Below the pieces are notes generated by a model, which had not been told where the DNA came from, did not search any database, and worked only from the letters and a program-made list of their open reading frames with translations. The position numbers and the translations under genes are program-made. Below are positions 40,866 through 41,062 of a stretch of DNA of 64,000 bases, piece by piece. How positions within the stretch are numbered: position 1 is the stretch's first letter; each line of letters opens with the position of its first letter. Origin of the DNA: Pseudotabrizicola sp. (GTDB lineage: Bacteria; Pseudomonadota; Alphaproteobacteria; Rhodobacterales; Rhodobacteraceae); the NCBI RefSeq assembly GCF_030684215.1, contig NZ_JAUXOV010000052.1, positions 144,507-208,506 on the forward strand. The letters are read 5' to 3'.

Positions 40866-41062
40866 TATGTACAAGGCTGGTTTCCGGGCTTGGAAAGCGG
40901 GCCATCGGCCCGGGCACGACACCTTCCCAAAGAGCAAGCCCTTCAGTGGTTTTCGTCGCGCCTCACTTTCATCACCGTTGCGGGGGCAGCGCCGGCGTTA
41001 CACCGGCTTCCCAATTCTCCGCTGTGTTGCAGCGGCACCTTGCAGCGCCAAGATACGATCTT
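40866..41062 (-). ncRNA. Cobalamin (B12) riboswitch upstream of gbcA
   Basis: Minus strand reads GGTGCCGCTGCAACACAGCGGAGAATTGGGAAGCCGGTGTAACGCCGGCGCTGCCCCCGCAACGGTGATG...ACCACTGAAGGG...TTTGGGAAGG...AAGCCCGGAAACCAGCC, matching conserved blocks (GGGAA..GGTG, GCTGCCCCCGC, CCACTG, GGGAAGG, B12 box). Confidence 0.9.

Follow-up and report, generated by a model that had tools for sequence, protein, structure and literature searches.

Why should a cobalamin riboswitch stand in front of genes for an oxygen-dependent amine demethylase? The question is raised by a 64-kb stretch of a Pseudotabrizicola genome (the window), in which the cobalamin family RF00174 is the sole RNA-family match returned by cmscan. 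The match covers the full model (1-189) and scores 109.2 bits, well over the gathering score of 31.5 (E=2e-26). The initial annotation had placed a cobalamin riboswitch at 40866-41062 and named an Infernal search with RF00174 as the check; the search bears the claim out, with ends lying within ~8 nt of the claimed ones. The aptamer does precede the gbcA-like start codon at 40752, as had been stated, but at a measured distance of 105 nt instead of ~115 nt. The features discussed below are as follows.

40858-41057, minus strand: cobalamin riboswitch aptamer (RF00174, full length)
40982-40986, minus strand: CCCCC of aptamer loop L5, located by its position in the RF00174 alignment
40767-40788, minus strand: P13-like hairpin GTCCATGC-GGGGAG-GCATGGGC with an 8-bp stem, just 5' of the ribosome binding site; expression platform
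40758-40763, minus strand: Shine-Dalgarno-like GCGAGG, 5 nt before the ATG, read from the sequence
39514-40752, minus strand: gbcA-like Rieske oxygenase of group V, quaternary-ammonium type (PF00355/PF00848)
38437-39510, minus strand: gbcB-like reductase with FAD, NAD and C-terminal 2Fe-2S domains (PF00970, PF00175, PF00111)

The window riboswitch is itself an ordinary member of RF00174. In an alignment of 25 aptamers located upstream of gbcA, compensatory double changes are found in 24 of 47 predicted pairs, and the L5 CCCCC is invariant. The Pseudotabrizicola genome contains seven other cobalamin riboswitches, each of which precedes genes that fit a role in B12 synthesis or uptake. Contigs C19 and C57 (L009-L011) each carry a copy of a B12 synthesis/transport gene set that includes three riboswitches; on C19 this copy seems degraded, with the genes for cobyric acid synthase and the ABC transporter in pieces.

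The gbcB-like gene starts 3 nt past the gbcA-like gene. The oxygenase contains the Rieske cluster ligand motifs CRHRG at 85 and CPYHQWT at 105, and the ECYHC cysteine pair (Cys-X-X-Cys) at residues 200-204, with NNRECYHC present in 81 of 83 aligned proteins. Such a pair beside the mononuclear iron site is a feature of group V Rieske oxygenases, which act on quaternary ammonium substrates (PMC10952381). The two-component architecture and the best NCBIfam matches are shared with the glycine betaine monooxygenase GbcAB of Pseudomonas, Chromohalobacter and Vibrio natriegens; however, the window pair falls under both equivalog cut-offs, with 500.9 bits against 670 for GbcA (NF058607) and 373.3 bits against 500 for GbcB (NF058606). 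The other scored GbcA homologues likewise reach 490-518 bits against the GbcA cut-off. Given the Rieske and catalytic domains, the best matches to GbcA and GbcB and the group V cysteine pair, the predicted function of a quaternary-amine demethylase is well supported, and betaine is its likely substrate. The initial annotation of a gbcAB-like operon holds for the Rieske/reductase pair and its best models, which score under the curated cut-offs. The oxygenase is the sole close copy in its genome, where the next matches are 29-32% identical.

The surroundings of the pair were considered as well. A complete glycerol-3-phosphate-type ABC transporter, ugpBAEC, lies directly downstream of gbcB (34020-38245, minus strand). 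Its membership in the riboswitch-controlled unit, for instance for glycerophosphocholine uptake, is unsupported, because a gap of ~190 nt separates it from gbcB, the ugp set occurs at no other examined riboswitch-bearing locus, and a different ABC transporter intervenes in the nearest relative (L014). Divergent from gbcAB is a nitrate assimilation cluster (~41100-52531, plus strand; read from translations) with an ANTAR regulator, a nitrate ABC transporter and nitrite and nitrate reductases, which ends in a SUMT (cobA-like) gene at 51695-52531 on the plus strand.

A B12-dependent route for betaine was described in 2025 as a major path (PMC12478193). In Ruegeria pomeroyi, which is without MetH, betaine is demethylated via MtgB-MtgC-MtgD and methionine is made via MtgC-MtgD-MtgE, and genetic data demonstrate that MtgC and MtgD are required for both processes (PMC12478193). 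The initial annotation had proposed a genome search for a B12-dependent betaine methyltransferase, and the Pseudotabrizicola genome proved to encode MtgE-MtgC-DUF1638 on contig C48, MtgD on C30 (70% identical to Roseibium MtgD) and four MTTB homologues, one of them beside two dimethylglycine/sarcosine-dehydrogenase-like genes. Neither canonical MetH (PF02965) nor MetE (PF01717) was found in this genome.

With the probability of about 0.75, we propose that gbcAB serves as an O2-dependent bypass around the B12-dependent demethylation of quaternary amines and is repressed by B12: an adenosylcobalamin riboswitch would shut off translation and MtgC would be spared for methionine. The ligand, the sign of control, the kissing-loop mechanism, the substrate and the physiological purpose are the parts that we infer; the data themselves demonstrate the riboswitch with its conservation and covariation, the conserved hairpin, the family-level identities of the genes, and the presence of Mtg genes in the same genomes and, in places, beside gbcAB. 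In this scheme, the gbcA-gbcB mRNA carries a cobalamin riboswitch of class-I type in its 5' leader, and adenosylcobalamin would be its ligand. When B12 is plentiful, binding would steady a kissing contact between the L5 CCCCC and the GGGG loop of the hairpin adjacent to the ribosome binding site, and this contact would keep gbcA-gbcB translation off for as long as B12 is abundant; when B12 is scarce, translation would be released. Using O2 and NADH, the Rieske oxygenase and its reductase would then remove a methyl group from glycine betaine, or from a similar quaternary amine, with formaldehyde and dimethylglycine as products. The route in which MtgB-MtgC-MtgD pass this methyl group on to tetrahydrofolate would thereby be bypassed. 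Betaine being moved off MtgC, the scarce corrinoid would stay available for methionine synthesis by MtgE, a benefit suggested by the lack of canonical MetH and MetE in the genome.

The alternative that survives best keeps this switch and changes its substrate: the oxygenase may act on proline betaine (stachydrine) or on carnitine-type or other quaternary amines, the B12-dependent partner being another MTTB-family methyltransferase. We regard this variant as possible, albeit with a clearly smaller share of the probability. It arises because the pair scores under the GbcA/GbcB cut-offs and no known enzyme is closer than the stachydrine demethylase Stc2: the closest solved structures to the window oxygenase are Stc2 of Sinorhizobium meliloti (PDB 3VCA), which also has the group V cysteine pair, and 3N0Q, each ~61% identical. 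With a score under the equivalog cut-off and similar identities to the known enzymes, the protein could be named neither a true GbcA nor a true Stc2. The supply of candidate partners is also ample, since MTTB paralogs number four in the Pseudotabrizicola genome and up to 16 in relatives, and one corrinoid protein serves MttB homologues acting on several quaternary amines (PMC12478193). However, the S. meliloti stachydrine gene stc2 belongs to a separate locus, stc2-stc4-stc3 with a LysR gene, at which there is no riboswitch; the riboswitch-bearing paralog in S. meliloti USDA1021 is a different gene, just 54% identical to stc2; and a glycine betaine ABC binding protein gene lies near the riboswitch-gbcAB unit of Phaeobacter gallaeciensis.

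Translational control is suggested by the region between the aptamer and the start codon. The GGGGAG loop of the hairpin at 40767-40788 is complementary to the L5 CCCCC, and the motif CGAGG or GCGAGG is kept at related gbcA loci. Pairing in the hairpin was counted in the 12 Paracoccaceae-type sites alone, because a register difference between the Paracoccaceae and roseobacter sequences blurred the pair counts in the full alignment; in this set, paired cells make up 88.5% of the hairpin, against no more than 45.7% in slid controls, and double changes occur in four of the eight pairs. A G-rich-loop hairpin scoring at least 9 was detected in 16 of 29 riboswitch-bearing gbcA upstream regions and in 2 of 52 others. 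The G-rich loop is common and not universal, being absent in L055, L074, L077, L048 and L062, and the region of the ribosome binding site, folded alone as a single sequence, is no more stable than its shuffles (z -0.78). In translational switches of the cobalamin class, an L5-L13 kissing loop stabilizes P13 and thereby occludes the ribosome binding site (PMC10653944). On account of these known switches, of the hairpin beside the ribosome binding site and of the complementarity of its loop to L5, translational repression is the likely mode of control.

That B12 instead activates gbcAB, or that the riboswitch works via transcription termination, seems improbable to us. An activating corrinoid riboswitch does exist (PMC10653944), and an aptamer alone does not reveal the sign of control; however, a conserved hairpin at the ribosome binding site whose loop, at most of the sites, is complementary to L5 fits the pattern of translational repressing platforms, and the B12-free isozymes encoded next to some of these units, described below, favor repression over activation.

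The pairing of the riboswitch with gbcAB is no peculiarity of one genome. We retrieved 80 gbcA loci from named genomes; in 28 of them, representing ~20 genera of Rhodobacterales and Stappiaceae, a riboswitch lies upstream of gbcA. Most of these sites were checked and confirmed by Rfam, and two of the 28 riboswitches (L025 and L075) are degenerate or partial. No cobalamin match was obtained at the 17 riboswitch-negative gbcA loci scanned with Rfam. Plasmid records with a riboswitch before gbcAB include those of Gemmobacter fulvus, Cereibacter azotoformans, Tritonibacter mobilis F1926, T. scottomollicae, P. gallaeciensis P128 and DSM 26640, Ruegeria TM1040, S. meliloti USDA1021 (pSymB), Sinorhizobium K101 and Shinella PSBB067, whereas the plasmid gbcA paralog of C. 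sphaeroides 2.4.1 has no riboswitch. The TM1040 oxygenase, controlled by the riboswitch as judged from its position, is 100% identical to 3N0Q, a structure that carries only the name 'putative aromatic-ring hydroxylating dioxygenase'. On the GbcA protein tree the riboswitch is strongly clustered, and ~9 gains or losses are required to explain its distribution. The distance from riboswitch to start codon is limited to ~70-170 nt across the loci, and the genes flanking the riboswitch and gbcAB vary widely, thus the two form a conserved unit. Two copies of gbcAB occur in Roseibium aquae: one follows a cobalamin riboswitch and lies beside mtgCD (L048), and the other has no riboswitch and is found next to genes for an NADH:flavin oxidoreductase and for a TetR-like regulator (L064); the different settings indicate that differently regulated gbcAB paralogs coexist in this genome.

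We compared the distribution of the riboswitch with that of the B12-dependent enzymes. Across 79 gbcA genomes, for 29 of which MetH presence was read from the MtgC search, MtgC is encoded in 27 of 28 riboswitch-bearing and 34 of 51 other genomes (p=0.002) and MetH in 6 of 28 and 35 of 51, respectively (p=7e-5), both being simple counts over related genomes. MTTB homologues are present in all 28 riboswitch-bearing genomes, and the Paracoccus group is mostly without MtgC and without the riboswitch. Counted in this simple way, the riboswitch is strongly associated with having MtgC and lacking MetH, but the association is no longer significant when relatedness is taken into account: the GbcA tree offers only five well-supported independent pairs, and neither trait is significant among them.

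The recurring neighbors of the riboswitch-gbcAB unit also point to B12. In R. aquae (L048) and R. hamelinense (L062), the unit is divergent from mtgC, DUF1638, mtgD (methyltetrahydrofolate:corrinoid methyltransferase) and a RACo-type activator, the last being annotated in L048. In Pseudogemmobacter (L018), the order riboswitch-gbcA-gbcB-thioesterase-nrdI-nrdE is found on one strand and there is no second cobalamin riboswitch in this stretch, so that nrdI-nrdE, which are B12-free ribonucleotide reductase genes, lie co-directionally with gbcAB behind a single riboswitch; the gene after nrdE is a putative nrdF, taken from gene clustering only. In UBA996 (L016), gbcAB is followed by a split methionine synthase and then by a further cobalamin riboswitch before an NrdI-like gene; a metH pair is convergent with riboswitch-gbcAB in C. 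azotoformans; and in L025 and L050 gbcAB adjoins CbiM-type cobalt transport genes that bear their own riboswitch. A further cobalamin riboswitch, separate from that of gbcAB, stands before fdhA, the gene for glutathione-independent formaldehyde dehydrogenase, in Sinorhizobium sp. RAC02 and in two strains of Shinella; in WSC3-e and RAC02 the gene product scores over the TIGR02819 cut-off, and in PSBB067 the gene was identified by sequence likeness.

L115:3958-4158: cobalamin riboswitch upstream of fdhA
L116:3958-4157: cobalamin riboswitch upstream of fdhA
L122:3958-4159: cobalamin riboswitch upstream of fdhA

Formaldehyde is a by-product of GbcAB, none is formed by the B12 route, and the fdhA product removes it. 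The initial annotation had suggested a switch between O2-dependent and B12-dependent demethylation of betaine. This idea is favored by the Mtg genes of the Pseudotabrizicola genome itself and by the MtgC and MTTB counts in the riboswitch-bearing genomes, with further support from the divergent mtgCD genes in Roseibium, the neighboring genes for B12-free ribonucleotide reductase and the fdhA riboswitch in Shinella.

Another purpose for the same control would be precursor supply, in which low B12 would induce the breakdown of betaine as a source both of glycine, from which to form 5-aminolevulinate, and of one-carbon units, which the methylation steps of B12 synthesis consume. Aminolevulinate is derived from glycine in alphaproteobacteria, and the B12 synthesis marker CobH is encoded in 24 of the 28 riboswitch-bearing genomes. 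However, the other four lack a CobH match, two of them being isolates (Rubellimicrobium thermophilum and Ruegeria profundi), and the joint gene arrangements involve B12-free or B12-using enzymes (nrdI-nrdE, mtgCD and split metH) and no corrin synthesis genes, which makes this explanation improbable. Some parts of the B12-repressed bypass could hold together with the alternatives considered here.

Loss of the riboswitch was observed close to the window itself. Pseudotabrizicola formosa (L014), the closest relative, has an oxygenase 90% identical to that of the window and shares the upstream neighbors, yet is without the riboswitch. The alignment contains a single 242-nt gap corresponding to window positions 40765-41006, whereby the aptamer core and the hairpin are gone; the leftover (L014:5940-6003) consists of a remnant of the 5' stem, with the Shine-Dalgarno sequence and start codon intact. 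By this alignment, the P. formosa gbcA leader appears as a natural riboswitch deletion mutant. The P. formosa genome encodes MtgC and a full-length MetH and has no CobH match. In Rhodobacter sp. TJ_12 (L025:5762-5937), the riboswitch before gbcA is degenerate and, at 31.8 bits, barely above the gathering score; it is apparently decaying. That the riboswitch is a mere passenger, captured beside gbcA and exerting no control over it, is very improbable, for although the degenerate and deleted copies prove that it can be lost, it is kept with covariation across many genera and differing neighborhoods at ~70-170 nt from the start codon.

The proposed B12-repressed bypass resembles several known systems and differs from each. 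The RF00174 riboswitches on B12-independent isozymes (metE, nrdAB/nrdEF) have the same aptamer class and the same logic of repression in the presence of B12; however, the target here is a Rieske pair, which would stand in for a catabolic methyl transfer dependent on B12, and its product would be formaldehyde in place of methyl-tetrahydrofolate. A published account of this regulon lists a class of 'isozymes of B12-dependent enzymes', and betaine, Rieske and dioxygenase genes are unmentioned in its text (PMC3766115). In P. aeruginosa, gbcAB depends on the activator GbdR and not on a riboswitch (PMC12093977). The MtgBCDE system of R. pomeroyi acts on the substrate proposed for the window pair, but it is B12-dependent and O2-independent; the same study regards gbcAB as a system apart, of low abundance, and describes no riboswitch on it (PMC12478193). 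The methionine synthase MesD/MesX likewise uses O2 and no B12 to get round a methyl transfer that depends on B12 (PMC7857596), although its proteins are unrelated and PF01717, the family of MesD, is absent from the Pseudotabrizicola genome. In the open-access literature we found no published riboswitch on gbcAB, stc2 or fdhA; gbcAB would thus be a new target for a known cobalamin riboswitch class.

Betaine is among the most abundant marine osmolytes. The recurrence of the riboswitch-gbcAB pairing in many marine and soil bacteria that own the B12-dependent route suggests that the oxygen route is a backup at B12 shortage. With somewhat less confidence than in the switch itself, we lean towards the view that a B12-gated choice between Mtg and Gbc operates in many Rhodobacterales and some Rhizobiaceae, with fdhA raised concurrently in Shinella, and that this choice sets the fate of betaine carbon and protects methionine synthesis. 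If the proposed bypass is true, the cobalamin riboswitch makes the oxygenase a conditional backup to Mtg and ties B12 availability to the route of betaine breakdown, to formaldehyde production and to the corrinoid kept for methionine, and gbcAB expression in meta-transcriptomes would mark B12-starved bacteria.
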